Below are positions 25,978 to 36,514 of a stretch of 37,654 nt of DNA, in pieces. Origin of the DNA: Chitinophagaceae bacterium (GTDB taxonomy: Bacteria; Bacteroidota; Bacteroidia; Chitinophagales; Chitinophagaceae); assembly GCA_025449935.1 (NCBI GenBank), contig JANWIJ010000049.1:1-37654 (forward strand), in the 5' to 3' direction. The translations under genes and the position numbers were made by a program. Position 1 is the stretch's first letter, and each line of letters opens with the position of its first letter. Under the pieces are notes generated by a model that did not search any database, was not told where the DNA came from, and saw only the letters and a program-made list of their open reading frames with translations.

Positions 25978-26658
25978 TTAACGTGGAACTTTCAGGAGTG
26001 CACAAACCCTTTCATAAGGCATCGCTTTCAATTGTTCGGCCGTATAACCCGTTCCGCCGACACCGTTGCTGCTTCTTCCGGCTACACCACCGGGTATCAG
26101 TATGTACCTGAACTGTGCACCGGCTCCCAAACTTCCAAAAGGAGGTATGGTGGCAGGGCTGTTAACCAAATAGAAATAGAAAATAATTTTATTCAGTGCC
26201 GGACGGTTACCAATCTCCACAAGCTGGGCGGCACTGGTAAACAACGATGGTAATTGTATGGGATTGTTGCCTGATAAGGTCCACCTGTAATAGGTTAAGA
26301 TAACACCCTGGTCCAGGATAGCCTGTGTTAACGAGGGTGCAGCCATGATATATCTCTTTGCATTTCCGGCAGGAACCGAGATGGATGCCATCACAGAATC
26401 TCCCCAGGTACCTTCAGCTGTCCAGGCGGAATAAATCACGTTGGCCGTTCCGGCAGGGCCTTGCGGACCAACAGGGCCAGTAGGGCCTTGCGGACCAGTA
26501 GGACCGGTGGGGCCAGTTGGACCCGTTGCACCATTTCCGCCATTTGGACCTTGTGGTCCGGTTGCACCGGCGGGGCCTTCAGGACCTTCCTTTGTACAGT
26601 TGACAGCTATAAAAGCGATGGCTAATAGTAATAGCGAAAGAGATTTGATCTTCCTCAT
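25978..26658 (-). CDS. Collagen-like repeat lipoprotein
   Basis: A 226-residue protein with an N-terminal hydrophobic segment ending at Cys21 (IAVNC), a plausible though not ideal lipobox. Residues 25-72 are 16 unbroken Gly-X-Y triplets, rich in GPT, GPQ and GPA, which should form a collagen-like triple helix. The C-terminal 150 residues ([13 protein letters not shown] onward) are a separate globular domain that I do not recognise beyond similarity to proteins with the same stalk. The layout suggests a trimeric, surface-anchored stalk with a head domain. It is divergent from the beta-barrel gene at 26857 and has its own terminator. Confidence 0.87.
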
Positions 26659-27674: not shown

Positions 27675-28496
27675 TTACTTATTCATCAGCTGCTTGGCCT
27701 CGATGCTCAGGGTGGCATGAGGTACAGCTCTTAACCTCGCTTTATCAATCAGCTTCCCGGTTACCCGGCAAATGCCATAGGTTTTATTTTCGATCCGCAT
27801 CATCGCCTTTTCAAGGTGATCGATGAAAGTGATCTGCCTGCTTGCCATCTGGCTTAGTTGTTCCCGTTCCATACTTACACTGCCATCTTCCATGGTCATG
27901 TAGCGGGCTTCGTCCATATCACCGCCTTCATCCTTGCGGGTGATTAATCCCTGTAAATAGGTCAGCTCTTTCTTCGCAGCATCCAGTTTCCGCTGGATGA
28001 TTTCCCGGAACTCGGTCAGATCACCATCGGAGTAGCGCATGGTTGGTCCTGTAGATTGGTAAGCCTGTTTATCGAGCACTGATTTTGTAAACTCCGGTTC
28101 ATATTTCACCGAGCTTTTAGTAGTTGTTTTGGGAATCACCATTTTAAGAGGTTTAGGCGGTTCCTTTTTAATAACCGGTTTAACCTTGGGTTTAATTGAA
28201 ACCAATGATTTGGGGTCAACTGTACCGGGTTTTTTAACCACGGGTTTTTGAGCCGGGGCTTCAGGTTTTGCGGCTACTTTAGGTGCCGGGCCGGCAGCCG
28301 GACGGGCAGATTTAGCCACTGGTTTTGCGACTACTTTCGGGGCCGGTTTCTTAGCAACATGTTTTGCTGCTTTCTTCGGGGCCGGTTTCTTGGGTGCAGA
28401 TTTTTTCACAGTTTTCTTTGCTGCCGGTTTTTTCGCAGCTGCTTTTTTAACGGGTTTGGCAGCCTTTTTAGAGGCATGTTTCTTTTTTGTAGCCAT
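27675..28496 (-). CDS. TraR/DksA family protein with histone H1-like N-terminal tail
   Basis: A 273-residue protein in two parts. Residues 1 to about 90 are almost entirely Lys, Ala and Pro (KKAAAKKPAAKKTVKK style), like histone H1 tails, and should bind nucleic acid non-specifically. From about residue 155 comes a DksA/TraR domain: a coiled coil with an acidic tip (DEGGDMDEAR), then the globular end YGICRVTGKLIDKARLRAVP. Only one of the four zinc cysteines of classical DksA remains, as is usual in Bacteroidota members. DksA proteins bind RNA polymerase and tune rRNA and stress promoters, often with ppGpp. It starts 3 bases after the ileS stop, so it is co-transcribed with it. Confidence 0.88.
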   Translation of the reverse strand: MATKKKHASKKAAKPVKKAAAKKPAAKKTVKKSAPKKPAPKKAAKHVAKKPAPKVVAKPVAKSARPAAGPAPKVAAKPEAPAQKPVVKKPGTVDPKSLVSIKPKVKPVIKKEPPKPLKMVIPKTTTKSSVKYEPEFTKSVLDKQAYQSTGPTMRYSDGDLTEFREIIQRKLDAAKKELTYLQGLITRKDEGGDMDEARYMTMEDGSVSMEREQLSQMASRQITFIDHLEKAMMRIENKTYGICRVTGKLIDKARLRAVPHATLSIEAKQLMNK

Positions 28497-28499
28497 ACA

Positions 28500-31400
28500 T
28501 TACCCTTTTTTTAAAACAATGACTTTTAATGATATATCGTTCACATTGATGTCGGTACCGCCAGTTAATTCGGGTACCAGTTCCAGCTTGTCGGCCAGAA
28601 TTTCGGCGCAAATATAGTCTTTATACCGGGCCAATGAATCATTTAATCCATTTGGTGCTGATACTTTAACTTCTATCCTGTCCGTAAGATCAAAACTATT
28701 ATCCTTCCTTATTTTCTGTATCCTGTTCACAAATTCACGGGCATTTCCTTCAGCTTCCAGTTCCGGGGTAACGGTTACATCCAGTGCCACGGTCAAACTC
28801 CCCTTGTTGGCCACTGTCCAGCCTGGAATATCCTCACTGCTTATCTCCACTTCCGCTAGCTGTAATATTACAGGTTCGTTATCAATTGACAAATTATATT
28901 GACCTTCTTTTTCCAACCGGGCAATGTCATCCTGGGTGAATTCCGCCAATGCCGCGGATACTGCTTTCATCCGCCCTCCCATTTTTTTCCCCAGGGCCAC
29001 AAAATTGGGTTTGATCTTTTTACTGATAAAAGTATTATCCGGGCCGGGATATTCTATTTCTTTTACATTCACTTCCGCTTTTATTAAATCCTCCACCTTT
29101 TGCAGTTGTTCTTTCATGGAGGCATTGATCACGGGGATCAACACTTTCTGCAAAGGTTGACGGACTTTCAGGTTCACCCGCTTGCGAAGCGATAATATTA
29201 AGGACGAGGCATCCTGCGCCAATTGCATTCTTTCTTCCAGTGATTCATCAATAAATGATTCATTGGCTGATGGAAAGTCTGCATGGTGCACTGATTCTGC
29301 GCTGAAACGGCCTGTTACCTTGTTCAGGCACTGGAAAACAACATCGCTGAAAAAAGGAGAAACAGGTGCAATTAATCTGGTGATGGTTTCCAGGCATTCA
29401 TATAAAGTCTGGTAAGCACAAATCTTATCCTGTTCATATTCTCCCTTCCAGAAACGGCGACGGCAAAGACGGACATACCAGTTACTTAAATGTTCATCGA
29501 CAAAATCCTCAATGACACGGCCGGCCTGAGTGGGTTCGTAGTCATCCATGTATTCATTTGCTTTCTTCACCACCGTATTAAGCGAAGAAAGTATCCAGCG
29601 GTCAATCTCGGGACGTTGCGCCAAAGGAATATAATCTTCCCTGAAAACAAAGCCATCCACATTGGCATAGAGAGCGAAGAACTGGTACGTGTTATACAAA
29701 GTACCAAAGAACTTACGCTGCACTTCTTTAATTCCATCCAGGTCAAACTTCATATTATCCCAGGGCGAGGCATTGGTAACGAGATACCATCTTGTAGCAT
29801 CAGCGCCAAAGGTTTCAATGGTTTTAAATGGATCGACCACATTCCCGAGCCGTTTGCTCATCTTGTTACCGTTCTTATCCAATACCAACCCGTTTGAAAC
29901 ACAGGTTTTATACGCCACACTGTCAAACAGCATAACCGCGATGGCATGCAGGGTATAAAACCATCCCCGGGTCTGGTCAACACCTTCAGCGATATAATCG
30001 GCGGGAAAATTTTTCTCAAATGTTTCTTTATTCTCAAATGGGAAATGCCATTGGGCATATGGCATTGCCCCGGAATCAAACCACACATCAATCAGGTCAG
30101 GTACCCGTTTCATGGGTTCACCTTTTTTACTAACCAGGATGATATCATCCACATAAGGTTTGTGCAGGTCAAGAATCCCTTCGTGCAGGTAATGTTTATT
30201 GACATCCTCTCCCAATACCTCGTTGGCCTTCCGGATACCCGCATTTAATTCTTCAATGGAACCGATACAAACTTCTTCATCACCTTCTTCTGTTCTCCAG
30301 ATTGGCAACGGGGTTCCCCAGAATCTTGAACGGCTAAGGTTCCAGTCCACCATGTTTTCCAGCCAGTTACCAAAACGTCCCTCACCGGTTGATTTTGGTT
30401 TCCAGTTGATGGTCTTATTCAACTCCACCATCCTTTCTTTGACGGCAGTTGTTTTAATGAACCAGGCATCCAGCGGGTAATAAAGGATGGGTTTGTCGGT
30501 ACGCCAGCAATGCGGGTAGTTGTGTTCGTATTTTTCAACTTTAAAAGCCCGGTTCTCTTTTTTCAGTTTAACACTGATATCAACATTTACGTCAACATAG
30601 TTTGGGTCATCTTTATAATTCTTTACATACCGGTTGCTGAATTCACCCAGCCCATCCACAAATTTACCTTCCCTGTCCACCATCGTCAGAATTCCAATAT
30701 TGTATTTCTTTCCCACTTTAAAGTCATCGGCTCCAAATGCCGGCGCTGTGTGCACGATACCCGTACCATCGTCGGTGGTCACAAAACTATCCGTCATAAC
30801 CCGGAACGGTTTTGCACCGGGAGTGATTTCCTGTATGGTTTTTAAAGAATTGGCTTCATATGGTAGCAGTTGTTCGTATTCGGCACCTTCTATGTTTTGG
30901 CCTTTAAACTCAGTAAGGATTTTGTAAGGAATATTTTTACCGTCATGCTGGTAAGCACCAAAATCTGCATTCAGGTTTTCCGGTTTAAAATACTTGCCCA
31001 ACAACGTCTTTGCCAGCACGATGTTGATCGTGTTGTGTAAATAGGGATTAATGGTTTTCACCAGCACATAATCAATATTGGGGCCAACCGTCAATCCTAA
31101 ATTGGAAGGAAGTGTCCATGGAGTTGTGGTCCAGGCAAGAAAGAACACTTCTTCATTGCCAGCTGCATCAAATAAAAATTTGGATTGCTTATTTTTTACC
31201 GCTTTAAACATGGCAACTGCACTTGTATCCTTCACATCTTTGTAGGTCCCGGGCTGGTTAAGTTCATGCGAGCTCAACCCTGTTCCTGCGGCCGGTGAAT
31301 AGGGCTGGATACTCACACTTTCATACAACAATCCTTTTTTATATAATTCACTGAGTATCCACCAGAGTGTTTCGATATACTCATTTTTAAAAGTGATATA

Positions 31401-31853
31401 GGGGTCGTCCAGGTCAACCCAGTATCCCATCTTGCGGGTAATGTCATCCCATTTGTCTTTGTATCTTAATACCGCTTCCCGGCATTTTTGGTTGTATTCT
31501 TCAACAGATATTTTTTTGCCGATATCTTCCTTGGTAATACCCAATTCTTTTTCAACACCTAATTCTATGGGCAGGCCATGTGTGTCCCAGCCGCCTTTTC
31601 TTTTTACCTGGAAACCTTTCATGGTTTTGTAGCGACAAACCAGGTCCTTCAGTGTTCTTGAAATAACATGGTGGATACCTGGCATACCATTGGCACTGGG
31701 AGGGCCTTCATAAAATACAAATGGTGGAGCCCCTTCCCGCAGGGTCACACTTTTTTCAAAAGCCTGTTTTTCAGACCATTGCCCGAGAATTTCCTGCTCA
31801 AAAGCCGGCAAATTAAGTCCTGTAAATTCCCTGTATTTGACACGCATAGCCAT
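28500..31853 (-). CDS. ileS: Isoleucyl-tRNA synthetase, type 2, with swapped GxHH signature
   Basis: A 1117-residue class I synthetase that charges tRNA-Ile. Its length and sequence match the eukaryote-like type 2 group (IleRS2), not the roughly 940-residue type 1 enzyme. The class I signature HxGH is replaced by GIHH (residues 59-62, within GPPSANGMPGIHHVI; bases 31668-31679). The KMSKR loop is at residues 664-668. The CP1 editing domain is present (TTPWTLPSN, GTGIVHTAPAFGADD), followed by an anticodon-binding region (NWYVRLCRRRFWKGE). The first ATG is 31851-31853. An ATG two codons later (31847) would fit better with the TACCTTTG promoter element at 31867-31874. No second ileS is seen in the window. 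Confidence 0.97.
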   Translation of the reverse strand: MAMRVKYREFTGLNLPAFEQEILGQWSEKQAFEKSVTLREGAPPFVFYEGPPSANGMPGIHHVISRTLKDLVCRYKTMKGFQVKRKGGWDTHGLPIELGVEKELGITKEDIGKKISVEEYNQKCREAVLRYKDKWDDITRKMGYWVDLDDPYITFKNEYIETLWWILSELYKKGLLYESVSIQPYSPAAGTGLSSHELNQPGTYKDVKDTSAVAMFKAVKNKQSKFLFDAAGNEEVFFLAWTTTPWTLPSNLGLTVGPNIDYVLVKTINPYLHNTINIVLAKTLLGKYFKPENLNADFGAYQHDGKNIPYKILTEFKGQNIEGAEYEQLLPYEANSLKTIQEITPGAKPFRVMTDSFVTTDDGTGIVHTAPAFGADDFKVGKKYNIGILTMVDREGKFVDGLGEFSNRYVKNYKDDPNYVDVNVDISVKLKKENRAFKVEKYEHNYPHCWRTDKPILYYPLDAWFIKTTAVKERMVELNKTINWKPKSTGEGRFGNWLENMVDWNLSRSRFWGTPLPIWRTEEGDEEVCIGSIEELNAGIRKANEVLGEDVNKHYLHEGILDLHKPYVDDIILVSKKGEPMKRVPDLIDVWFDSGAMPYAQWHFPFENKETFEKNFPADYIAEGVDQTRGWFYTLHAIAVMLFDSVAYKTCVSNGLVLDKNGNKMSKRLGNVVDPFKTIETFGADATRWYLVTNASPWDNMKFDLDGIKEVQRKFFGTLYNTYQFFALYANVDGFVFREDYIPLAQRPEIDRWILSSLNTVVKKANEYMDDYEPTQAGRVIEDFVDEHLSNWYVRLCRRRFWKGEYEQDKICAYQTLYECLETITRLIAPVSPFFSDVVFQCLNKVTGRFSAESVHHADFPSANESFIDESLEERMQLAQDASSLILSLRKRVNLKVRQPLQKVLIPVINASMKEQLQKVEDLIKAEVNVKEIEYPGPDNTFISKKIKPNFVALGKKMGGRMKAVSAALAEFTQDDIARLEKEGQYNLSIDNEPVILQLAEVEISSEDIPGWTVANKGSLTVALDVTVTPELEAEGNAREFVNRIQKIRKDNSFDLTDRIEVKVSAPNGLNDSLARYKDYICAEILADKLELVPELTGGTDINVNDISLKVIVLKKG

Positions 31854-33035: not shown

Positions 33036-34436
33036 CTACCCTCTTTTGATCAGCACAGACTCATAAGCCGGGTATCCTCTTTCGCCATTCTGGGTCAGCG
33101 CGGTGAATCTCAGTTTATAGTAATTATTATTCCCATCCCGGATAATATAATAACGATCCGTTCTTACAGCCGGAGAAGAAGTGGGTCCGCCACCGGAGCG
33201 CCAGTCGGAGCCGATAGCGGTTTGGGTGGTCAAAAAGGTTTGAGCAGCGATATTTGTAGAGTCAAAATCGGCAAAAGCTTTAGTGGCTGTCATCACTTTG
33301 GCCACCTGCACATTCCGGTTTATGATAATAATGTCCTGGAAGAGATAGGGCACTTCACCGGCGCCAAAGTTCGTGGTATTGGAAAAATAGCTCCAGGCCA
33401 TATCCCATTTCTTTTTTTCGGGCTCCACGTTCACTGAGCCGTTATCAAATGATATATACTTAAAGAAATATTTATCGTCTTTGGCAATATTCATTTCCTG
33501 GAAACTGGTTGCGGAAATATCTGCGTACTGAAGCGTATAACCTCCGCCTGCATAGCGGATGATCCTTACTTTTTTCCATCCTCGTGCCGGGGCAGGGTTA
33601 CCCGGACCGGTTCCGCGGTTGACTATATATACTTTATTGTCGGTGGCTATGGAACTAATCGCCCCGATGGCTGTCCTGGTTAAATCGCCATTCGGATAAT
33701 CAATATAGGGCAATGATACCGGGGTGGGCGCAAACTGGTTAAACGCAACCTCGGCCGAAAAACCAATCGTGTCTGCCGCAGTTACCTGGGTAAGGTCATT
33801 TTTGGCTAGTTGTTTTGCCATCATCGCCGATGATGAATTCAGTATCACCCTGAAATCATCCGGACCCGTATAAAAACCCAGGTCCCAGTTCCCACGGTTC
33901 ACGGGAGTTTCCCGGTTCGCACTCAGGTCAATAAAAGTTTTATTTGGAAATAAAGCCCCGCCACCATTGATAACCGCGGAGGTGGATCCGGATACCAGTT
34001 CAGCAAAATTCAGTGCAAGTTGCTTCCGGTTACCGATAAAAACCGGTGACGCGGAGCTGTATATATCAAAAAGGAGTTGCTCATCCCCATCAAATAAAAC
34101 CCCGTTTACTTTTGAAACAGTAAATGAAGTTTCGGTGTTTCCCGATGGAATTAAAAGCTGGAGTTTCCCGGCTGCCGCGGCAGGTGTAGTAACATAATCA
34201 GTCGCGTAAAATACGCCCTGTTCCGCGATACTGATCGTGACCGCTATATCCCTGTCTGTCGGCCGCTCTAATTTTATTTTAAAATTAATACTGTTTTCTG
34301 AAGCCGTAATACCCTGTTGGCTTGTTTCAAAGTTGACCAGGTTATCCGGCAACATGGCCTCTCTCTTGCGGCAACCGGAAACCAGGACAGTTATTAATAA
34401 TGTTACGGTAATTATTTTTAGCATTTGCTTTTTCAT
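33036..34436 (-). CDS. HmuY family haem-binding lipoprotein with N-terminal Calx-beta-like domain
   Basis: A 466-residue lipoprotein (lipobox VSGC, Cys22). Residues about 33-128 resemble a Calx-beta domain (NFKIKLERPTDRDIAVTI, then SGNTETSFTV and DGDEQLLFDI). The rest is HmuY-like: GNWDLGFYTGPDDFRVILN, KKWDMAWSYFSNTT and PYLFQDIIIINRN are typical of the family. In Porphyromonas, HmuY is a surface haemophore that passes haem to the TonB-dependent receptor HmuR. Here the gene starts 41 bases after the receptor stop, so they form an operon. The extra N-terminal domain makes it about twice the length of P. gingivalis HmuY. The haem ligands cannot be assigned safely from sequence. Confidence 0.87.
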   Translation of the reverse strand: MKKQMLKIITVTLLITVLVSGCRKREAMLPDNLVNFETSQQGITASENSINFKIKLERPTDRDIAVTISIAEQGVFYATDYVTTPAAAAGKLQLLIPSGNTETSFTVSKVNGVLFDGDEQLLFDIYSSASPVFIGNRKQLALNFAELVSGSTSAVINGGGALFPNKTFIDLSANRETPVNRGNWDLGFYTGPDDFRVILNSSSAMMAKQLAKNDLTQVTAADTIGFSAEVAFNQFAPTPVSLPYIDYPNGDLTRTAIGAISSIATDNKVYIVNRGTGPGNPAPARGWKKVRIIRYAGGGYTLQYADISATSFQEMNIAKDDKYFFKYISFDNGSVNVEPEKKKWDMAWSYFSNTTNFGAGEVPYLFQDIIIINRNVQVAKVMTATKAFADFDSTNIAAQTFLTTQTAIGSDWRSGGGPTSSPAVRTDRYYIIRDGNNNYYKLRFTALTQNGERGYPAYESVLIKRG

Positions 34437-34477
34437 GTTGTATAAAAATTTATTGTGATCGTAGTTCCTGTTTTCAA

Positions 34478-36514
34478 TTATTTTTTCTCCCAGTTAAAGA
34501 CAAGGCCGGTAAAAAATGAACGGCCTGTAGCCACATTCAAACCCCCGCCGGAATGAATGCCCCCACTGGTAAAACTGTTCCGGATGCGATCGACATCAAA
34601 CAGATTCCGGGCTCCGCCATTCCATGAAAAATTCCGGAACAGTTTCTTGGTAAAGGTGAAATCAGCCATATGATATCCTTTTGTTTCAGCAGGTACGATA
34701 TCAGGGCCACTGGCCACGTAGCTGGGTCGTTTACCGGTGAATTTGTAAAAAATGTTCAGGTCCAAACCGATCCGGGAGAGCGAATAGCCGGCTGCTGCAT
34801 TTATTTCGCCTGACCATTGCAATTGGGGCAATGATTGATCTGCCTCGGAATAATCATTATAATACCCGGTGTAAGAAGCGCCCACTGATATATTCCATTG
34901 CTTGTATTTCACCATCGTATTAAGATGGGTCCCTGCTGTATTGCTATTGGAAATATTCGCTGTTAACACCGTATCTGATGTAGCCGAATACGCATAATCG
35001 ATCAGGTTTTTTACCTGGTTATAAAAACCGCCCAATACCGTGGTGTATGCCACCTGGTTCGGTGTAATTTTTTTCCAGGTCAGGGAACCATTAAAACTGT
35101 GCGAGGTTTCCGCTTTTAGGTCTGTATTACCCAGGATAGTGTGATTGGCATCCATAAAATTAAAGTACAGCTCCCGCAGGGAAGGAGACCTGAAGCCCCT
35201 GGCATAGGATACACGCAGGTCCAGTTTGTCTGATAAGGCAAATCTTGTATTCAGGGATGGTATAAGGGGTGGCGCATCATACACCGAATTGCGGATAACC
35301 CTTAACCCCGGTCGGATGCTGATCTTTGCCGAAGGGGTGATCTCGGAAGTTACAAAGAAGGCGAAGTCGTTCACTTTATTCTTCCCGGTTTTCAACCTTT
35401 CTCCATCTCCCTTTTCCAGGTTGATATCAATACCGGGCTGGAAAGAAACCCATGATGATAATTTATGAAATACGGTTCCGCGGAAAACGAACCCCGTAAA
35501 GTCAACCACAGACTGGTGGCCTGCACCCGGATCAAGACGCACGTCGCCATTTTCCTTATTTGTTGTTGTTGAAAAAACCTGCCGCCTGAAACCCGTGTAG
35601 GCGGCCTGCGCCTGGAAGTTCAGGTTATTATTTACATAATAAGCAGCCTGCAATTGCTGCATCAGCCGCCGGGAAAGATACTCCTGGTCGTAAGCAAGGG
35701 TATCGCCGGAATTTGGTTCGGGAAAAGAAGCAAAATCACCGGGGTTAGTGATCACTTCATCCAGGCCTTCCAGGCGGTAGCGTATATTAAGTTTGCCTTT
35801 TGTATAAGCTATAAATCCGTTAGCGATCAATTGGTCTTTTTTATGCCAGGCAAGTTCCCTGCCAACCGCTGTGTCTTTCCATCCTCCAAAATAGTTATGG
35901 CCGAATGCTCCACCAATCTCCAGGGATTTATGTTTCCACCGAAACCCCACATACTGGTTATGAATACCCTGGTTGATACCATACTCACGGCCGATGGTTT
36001 CTTCGTGCAGCTTTGCAGTTACGGAGAACTTTGAAGCACCGGCTTTTTTGGTAATAATATTAATAACACCGGCCAAAGCATCAGCCCCATAGATAACCGA
36101 CATAGGTCCTTCCACGATCTCGATACGTTCAACGGAGTTGATATCGATCTGGTTAATGTCTATTTCATTGGAGATACCCTGGCGCCCCGTTACCGGTATA
36201 CCATCCACAAGAATCTTTACATTCTGCCCCTTCAATCCCAGCATGGTGATGCCCGAACCGCCGGTGGAAAGGTCCTGTGAAAAACGAATATTCAGTTCCT
36301 GCTTTAGCACATCCTGGAGTTTGGTAGCCGCTTGTTTTTGTATCCTTTCGCCGGAGATTACCCGGACCTGGTATACTGAATTTTTTACTGACTGTGGTTT
36401 ATACTGGCCGGTAATAACTACTTCGCTAAGCTCTTTTGCCCGGGTGGTATCTTCCTGCGCTGATATTATTCCTGAAGCTAGAGCTGCTAACAGGACTGTG
36501 TAAATTTTTCTCAT
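34478..36514 (-). CDS. TonB-dependent outer-membrane receptor, probable haem/iron uptake
   Basis: A 678-residue receptor with a signal peptide ending near ISAQ. A TonB-box-like ELSEVVITG follows at about residues 29-37. The plug domain has ATKLQDVLKQELNIRF, GLKGQNVKILVDGIPV and VERIEIVEGPMSVIYGADALAGVINI. A beta-barrel reaches the C-terminal RSFFTGLVFNWEKK. There is no CarboxypepD-regulatory or SusC-type N-terminal extension, which places it with the BtuB/FepA/HmuR-like receptors rather than SusC. The HmuY gene immediately downstream points to haem as the substrate; a siderophore or cobalamin is a lesser possibility. The 352-base upstream gap holds the candidate control sites listed separately. 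Confidence 0.92.
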   Translation of the reverse strand: MRKIYTVLLAALASGIISAQEDTTRAKELSEVVITGQYKPQSVKNSVYQVRVISGERIQKQAATKLQDVLKQELNIRFSQDLSTGGSGITMLGLKGQNVKILVDGIPVTGRQGISNEIDINQIDINSVERIEIVEGPMSVIYGADALAGVINIITKKAGASKFSVTAKLHEETIGREYGINQGIHNQYVGFRWKHKSLEIGGAFGHNYFGGWKDTAVGRELAWHKKDQLIANGFIAYTKGKLNIRYRLEGLDEVITNPGDFASFPEPNSGDTLAYDQEYLSRRLMQQLQAAYYVNNNLNFQAQAAYTGFRRQVFSTTTNKENGDVRLDPGAGHQSVVDFTGFVFRGTVFHKLSSWVSFQPGIDINLEKGDGERLKTGKNKVNDFAFFVTSEITPSAKISIRPGLRVIRNSVYDAPPLIPSLNTRFALSDKLDLRVSYARGFRSPSLRELYFNFMDANHTILGNTDLKAETSHSFNGSLTWKKITPNQVAYTTVLGGFYNQVKNLIDYAYSATSDTVLTANISNSNTAGTHLNTMVKYKQWNISVGASYTGYYNDYSEADQSLPQLQWSGEINAAAGYSLSRIGLDLNIFYKFTGKRPSYVASGPDIVPAETKGYHMADFTFTKKLFRNFSWNGGARNLFDVDRIRNSFTSGGIHSGGGLNVATGRSFFTGLVFNWEKK

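Follow-up and report, generated by a model that had tools for sequence, protein, structure and literature searches.

The isoleucyl-tRNA synthetase (IleRS) gene, ileS, of the window, a stretch of 37,654 nucleotides from a Chitinophagaceae bacterium, encodes an enzyme in which the first histidine and the glycine of the class I signature HXGH have changed places, giving GIHH. This is almost certainly the housekeeping type 2 IleRS (ileS2) of the organism and a member of the described G/AXHH subgroup, and the swap is the usual form in its relatives, not an oddity of this organism. A survey of the phylum Bacteroidota suggests, further, that GXHH is probably a phylum-wide ancestral state that never reverted; the whole phylum would then charge isoleucine with a swapped signature and would be intrinsically hyper-resistant to mupirocin, with the swap coupled, in the window's class, to a serine at the site equivalent to E. 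coli Tyr-59. The features that the analysis draws on are as follows.

27675..28496, minus strand: DksA/TraR-like zinc-finger protein, 273 aa (PF01258, 3e-08), downstream, three bases after ileS
28500..31853, minus strand: ileS, isoleucyl-tRNA synthetase type 2 (TIGR00392, Pfam domains, and solved relatives)
29850..29864, minus strand: second class I motif KMSKR, residues 664 to 668 (script on the translation)
31668..31679, minus strand: swapped class I signature GIHH, residues 59 to 62, codons GGT ATC CAC CAT (read from the DNA and by script; aligned on IleRS2 structures)
31695..31697, minus strand: Ser-53 (GPPS-ANG), at what we take to be the E. coli Tyr-59 position (translation read by eye)

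Identity and type of the ileS product

The gene is a single long frame with an ATG start that encodes 1117 amino acids. Its product scored 1024.9 bits against TIGR00392, the curated equivalog for ileS (cut-off, 621.4 bits), and Pfam placed in it the class I core (tRNA-synt_1), an anticodon-binding domain (Anticodon_1), and a C-terminal DUF5915 at residues 921 to 1115. A C-terminal zinc finger domain is a feature of type 1 IleRS. Pfam found no zinc finger family in the ileS product (E ≤ 0.001), which places it with the type 2 enzymes. In a phmmer search of solved structures, the closest chains were 8c8w, 8c8v, 8c8u, and 8c9d (833 to 844 bits over residues 19 to 1106), all titled isoleucine-tRNA ligase; the 844 bits for 8c8w compare with 360 for 8c9f, 351 for 8c9e, and 336 for 1ffy, each of the last three aligning in two stretches. 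From passages of Brkic et al. 2023 (PMC10485003) and from the chain lengths, we infer that the four closest chains are P. megaterium IleRS2 and that 8c9f and 8c9e are its IleRS1; the same passages suggest that 1ffy is S. aureus IleRS1. With the type of each chain assigned in this way, the protein lies nearer to the IleRS2 than to the IleRS1 structures.

The type 2 assignment also agrees with shorter marks. Passages of PMC4861432 give Tyr-59, NKIL, and SSL as marks of type 1 and describe a type 2 group that is without these and has HYPFE. When the translation was read by eye, Tyr-59, NKIL, and SSL were absent, and the marks seen were the serine of GPPSANG, SRTL, and YTL. At residues 603 to 607 stands HFPFE, one residue off the HYPFE of 8c8w, with which it aligns. 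The preliminary description of this DNA, which had reported 1117 residues with type 2 features, was thus correct on both counts.

That description had also placed GIHH at residues 59 to 62 in the stead of HxGH and had called for an alignment with IleRS1 and IleRS2 enzymes of known structure. The codons from 31679 to 31668 encode exactly these residues, and the alignment, once run, matched them, with no gap, to the class I signature of solved IleRS2 ("pgihh" stands opposite "PGVHH" for 8c8w and opposite "PHVGH" for both 8c8v and 8c8u), in a protein that is nearer IleRS2; the motif as printed in the structures is GVHH in 8c8w and HVGH in 8c8v and 8c8u. With glycine first and histidine third, GIHH has the pattern that defines the G/AXHH subgroup (glycine or alanine first, histidine third). 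The KMSKR loop, which had been called intact, is so and starts at residue 664.

Distribution of the swapped motif

Homologues were gathered with search patterns that did not contain the motif, and the best 80 of at least 567 confirmed among at least 593 stretches were read; many of these records are titled as Chitinophagaceae or other Bacteroidota. All of the best 80 carry GIHH (a narrower expression had caught 79), which speaks against both chance and sequencing error as its source. The ileS of a cultured environmental relative, Terrimonas ferruginea DSM 30193 (L016), likewise reads GIHH. The KMSKR expression matched 78 of the same best 80 homologues and had no match in 2.

To this we added a sample of 247 genomes of the phylum, in which the start of ileS was read in 67 genomes covering all 43 families. 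GIHH was found in 59 of these, GVHH in 7, and GMHH in 1, and the canonical motif in none of the 67 ileS genes read. The expression used here specified a proline before the motif and a histidine at its end and left any residue free in the first three positions; no gene of the 67 failed it. The 67 were chosen with the help of a narrow DNA pattern, with 44 genomes that lacked a match, 2 that had a match elsewhere only, and 21 that had a match in ileS. Since the two sets overlap (at least L054/L163 and L046/L162 are the same contigs), the counts from the 80 and the 67 are not additive. Kept outside the 67 were the organism's own genome; L123 and L188 (truncated ileS start in genome G115, also GIHH); second copies of loci already counted (L164, L165, L172, and L173); pattern matches outside ileS (L148 and L149); and stretches that do not include the IleRS N terminus (L170, L171, L174, L175, L186, and L187). 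The motif count also made no use of L001 to L007 (own genome) and L088 to L107 (from the pattern for the canonical motif).

Two DNA patterns were set aside as measures of spread. The narrow pattern for the swapped motif matched 51 of the 247 genomes and was rejected as too narrow, because it required a codon with T in the middle before the proline, where the fetched genes have K, R, T, Q, or A. Its matches on contig C61 of G104 and contig C2 of G184 fall outside any ileS frame, and all 67 are still GXHH. A pattern for the canonical motif matched in at least 235 of the 247 genomes and was dropped, with no count drawn from it; it is too loose for IleRS because other class I synthetases also carry HXGH. 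One of its two matches in the own genome lies in a weak TIGR00392 match on contig C85, a 710-aa frame.

The second class I motif and the Tyr-59 position vary with class. KMSKR is found in 31 of the 33 fetched genomes of the window's class and in 1 of the 34 from elsewhere in the phylum, and KMSKS in 30 of those 34. We take Ser-53 to be the equivalent of E. coli Tyr-59, an assignment that rests partly on the E. coli sequence. The residue at this position is serine in every one of the 33 genomes from the window's class and threonine in all 34 from the other classes. The equivalence also draws on PMC4861432, passages of which link Tyr-59 to pretransfer editing and report phenylalanine or threonine at this position in eukaryotic and eukaryote-like (type 2) enzymes; the word "serine" has no occurrence in its main text.

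Proposed mechanism and predicted response to mupirocin

A swap of this kind is already known, since the G/AXHH variant was published in PMC10485003. Passages of that paper count G/AXHH in 86 IleRS2 among 379 IleRSs and in no IleRS1, describe the swap as found and tolerated in IleRS2 and not in IleRS1, and report a mupirocin Ki that is up to ~1,000-fold higher; motif exchanges in three IleRS2 enzymes shift Ki by ~175- to 820-fold (Table 1 of PMC10485003). These passages bear out the preliminary statement that the swap is tolerated only in an IleRS2 background and raises mupirocin resistance by orders of magnitude. For D. radiodurans IleRS2, with its natural ALHH, the mupirocin Ki is given as 6.6 mM (PMC10485003); for S. 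griseus IleRS2, which is said to have the same noncanonical motif (PMC10485003), it is given as ~10 mM (PMC4861432). Among the literature matches listed, the word GXHH occurs in PMC10485003 only, and the main text of that paper has no word beginning with Bacteroidetes, Bacteroidota, Flavobacter, or Chitinophag; in the portions of the literature covered, mupirocin measurements for enzymes from this phylum were not met.

Like the enzymes of S. griseus and D. radiodurans, the window enzyme is of type 2 and has positions one and three of HXGH exchanged; compared with this subgroup, it combines GIHH with KMSKR and with serine at the Tyr-59 position, as known here from sequence. P. megaterium IleRS2 (taken as 8c8u, 8c8v, 8c8w, and 8c9d), at 833 to 844 bits its closest solved relative, differs in that its wild-type motif is the canonical HVGH and in that the organism also has an IleRS1, according to passages of PMC10485003.

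The P. megaterium work suggests how such an enzyme could function. In that IleRS2, the motif helix is shifted by 1.7 Å toward the KMSKS loop, which is why a histidine in the third position can serve catalysis, and in modeling this histidine clashes with mupirocin (passages of PMC10485003). By extension, the third-position histidine of the window enzyme would take over the work of the first histidine of HXGH enzymes. Because the same residue would clash with mupirocin, binding of the drug is expected to be very weak, and homology together with the motif points to hyper-resistance of this enzyme. Uptake or efflux could set whole-cell susceptibility regardless of the target.

The swap may also be an old family trait whose first advantage lay in the tuning of catalysis or editing, resistance being a by-product. 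This account is compatible with the enzyme being the housekeeping type 2 IleRS, and we regard it as possible but somewhat doubtful. It would fit the presence of GXHH in all 67 genomes whose ileS was read across 43 families, with the canonical motif in none, and the change that accompanies the swap at the editing-linked Tyr-59 position in the window's class. However, uniformity by itself does not identify the selective force, and when GXHH was put into IleRS2 enzymes that lack it, there was a cost in Km and kcat and Ki rose strongly, which the authors read as a sign of selection by the antibiotic (passages of PMC10485003).

Copy number, neighborhood, and inheritance of ileS

The preliminary description had tied innate resistance to this being the only ileS and had called for a search of the whole genome. 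The own genome (3,501,364 bases in 118 contigs; completeness, 100; contamination, 0.34) yielded a single match above the TIGR00392 cut-off when all 11 candidates were scored; the runner-up, at 215 bits in an 880-aa frame, is taken to be ValRS. TIGR00392 exceeded its cut-off in all 14 control genomes, which include those of E. coli and B. subtilis, and since it also finds type 1 enzymes, an IleRS1 in the own genome would have shown up. No second full ileS was found among the 11 candidates scored with TIGR00392 in the own assembly, and, as far as that assembly shows, the gene is the only one. A sole ileS with a swapped motif would make the organism innately hyper-resistant to mupirocin.

Across the phylum sample, 246 of the 247 genomes, the own one among them, gave a single match at E ≤ 1e-150; three candidates were scored per genome, and a threshold this strict might miss second copies that are fragmentary or diverged. 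When every candidate was scored at E ≤ 1e-40, one ileS over the cut-off was seen in 16 of 17 genomes (7 plus 10; in three, ileS is split into pieces of one frame), with any other match below it. The genome with no match at the stricter value, G176, is rated 100% complete; at 1e-40 its one match, in an 873-aa frame, stays under the cut-off. Separately, contig C10 of G115, a genome of the same genus, carries a second ileS start with GIHH at ~300 to 800 (L188, 5580 bases) that passes into an unrelated tail after ~75 codons. Three pieces of 216 to 425 bases there are 77 to 82% identical to G115's full ileS start and its upstream stretch, and DUF4920-like and TonB-receptor-like frames were seen by eye on the same contig; a chimeric contig, a foreign contig, and a real fusion are the candidate readings.

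Among the loci of the best 80 of at least 567 homologues, 75 offer over 900 nt of room, and in every one of these a DksA-like homologue follows ileS on the same strand at a distance of up to 1500 nt; that this gene is kept after ileS indicates a housekeeping setting. In the window, the first half of the DksA/TraR-like protein is rich in Lys, Ala, and Pro and histone H1-like (41 K, 25 A, and 23 P in residues 1 to 140), and 75 similar frames, found by expression at the 80 loci (best of at least 567), have 18 to 37% Lys before the last 110 residues. Elsewhere in the window, a protein with collagen-like repeats (PF01391, residues 25 to 70) is encoded at 25978 to 26658 on the minus strand. Upstream of ileS, past a DUF6607 gene, an HmuY-domain protein (PF14064) adjoins a TonB-dependent receptor (33036 to 36514, minus strand); the top NCBIfam match of the receptor is a haem-receptor model, with 135.8 bits where the cut-off is 316.85, and the two are possibly a haem uptake pair.

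These observations bear on whether the gene might instead be a horizontally acquired mupirocin-resistance ileS, like mupA or mupB, beside a normal ileS, which we consider highly improbable. The protein is homologous to MupA and MupB over most of its length and matches their NCBIfam models (NF000257, 809.2 bits; NF000258, 789.2 bits), as expected for homologous enzymes, but both scores are far under the curated cut-off of 1900 bits. Unlike MupA and MupB, the window gene is the only ileS found, with no other full ileS in the own genome, and it stands in a conserved neighborhood, with the DksA-like neighbor present in all 75 relatives that have room (among the best 80 of at least 567). Acquisition was rejected on this single copy and conserved place, and the sequences suggest that vertical inheritance within the phylum, not acquisition as a resistance gene, is the most likely origin of ileS. 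The chance that the swap is merely apparent, produced by faulty sequencing or assembly or by decay of the gene, is negligible. The homologue survey refutes this reading, as separate records show the same four residues in all 80 homologues (best 80 of at least 567), and the frame is open across 1117 aa.

For this single gene, nothing new follows; it is ordinary for its lineage and of a kind already described. Our small additions are that no canonical motif was met among the ileS genes read from the phylum sample and that the Tyr-59 position holds serine (33/33) in the window's class and threonine (34/34) in the others. Annotators can take GXHH as the normal state of an ileS of this kind; it should be read neither as an error nor as evidence of acquired resistance. 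The larger genome sample indicates that a highly conserved class I motif can be rearranged and, in a type 2 background, kept across all 43 sampled families.
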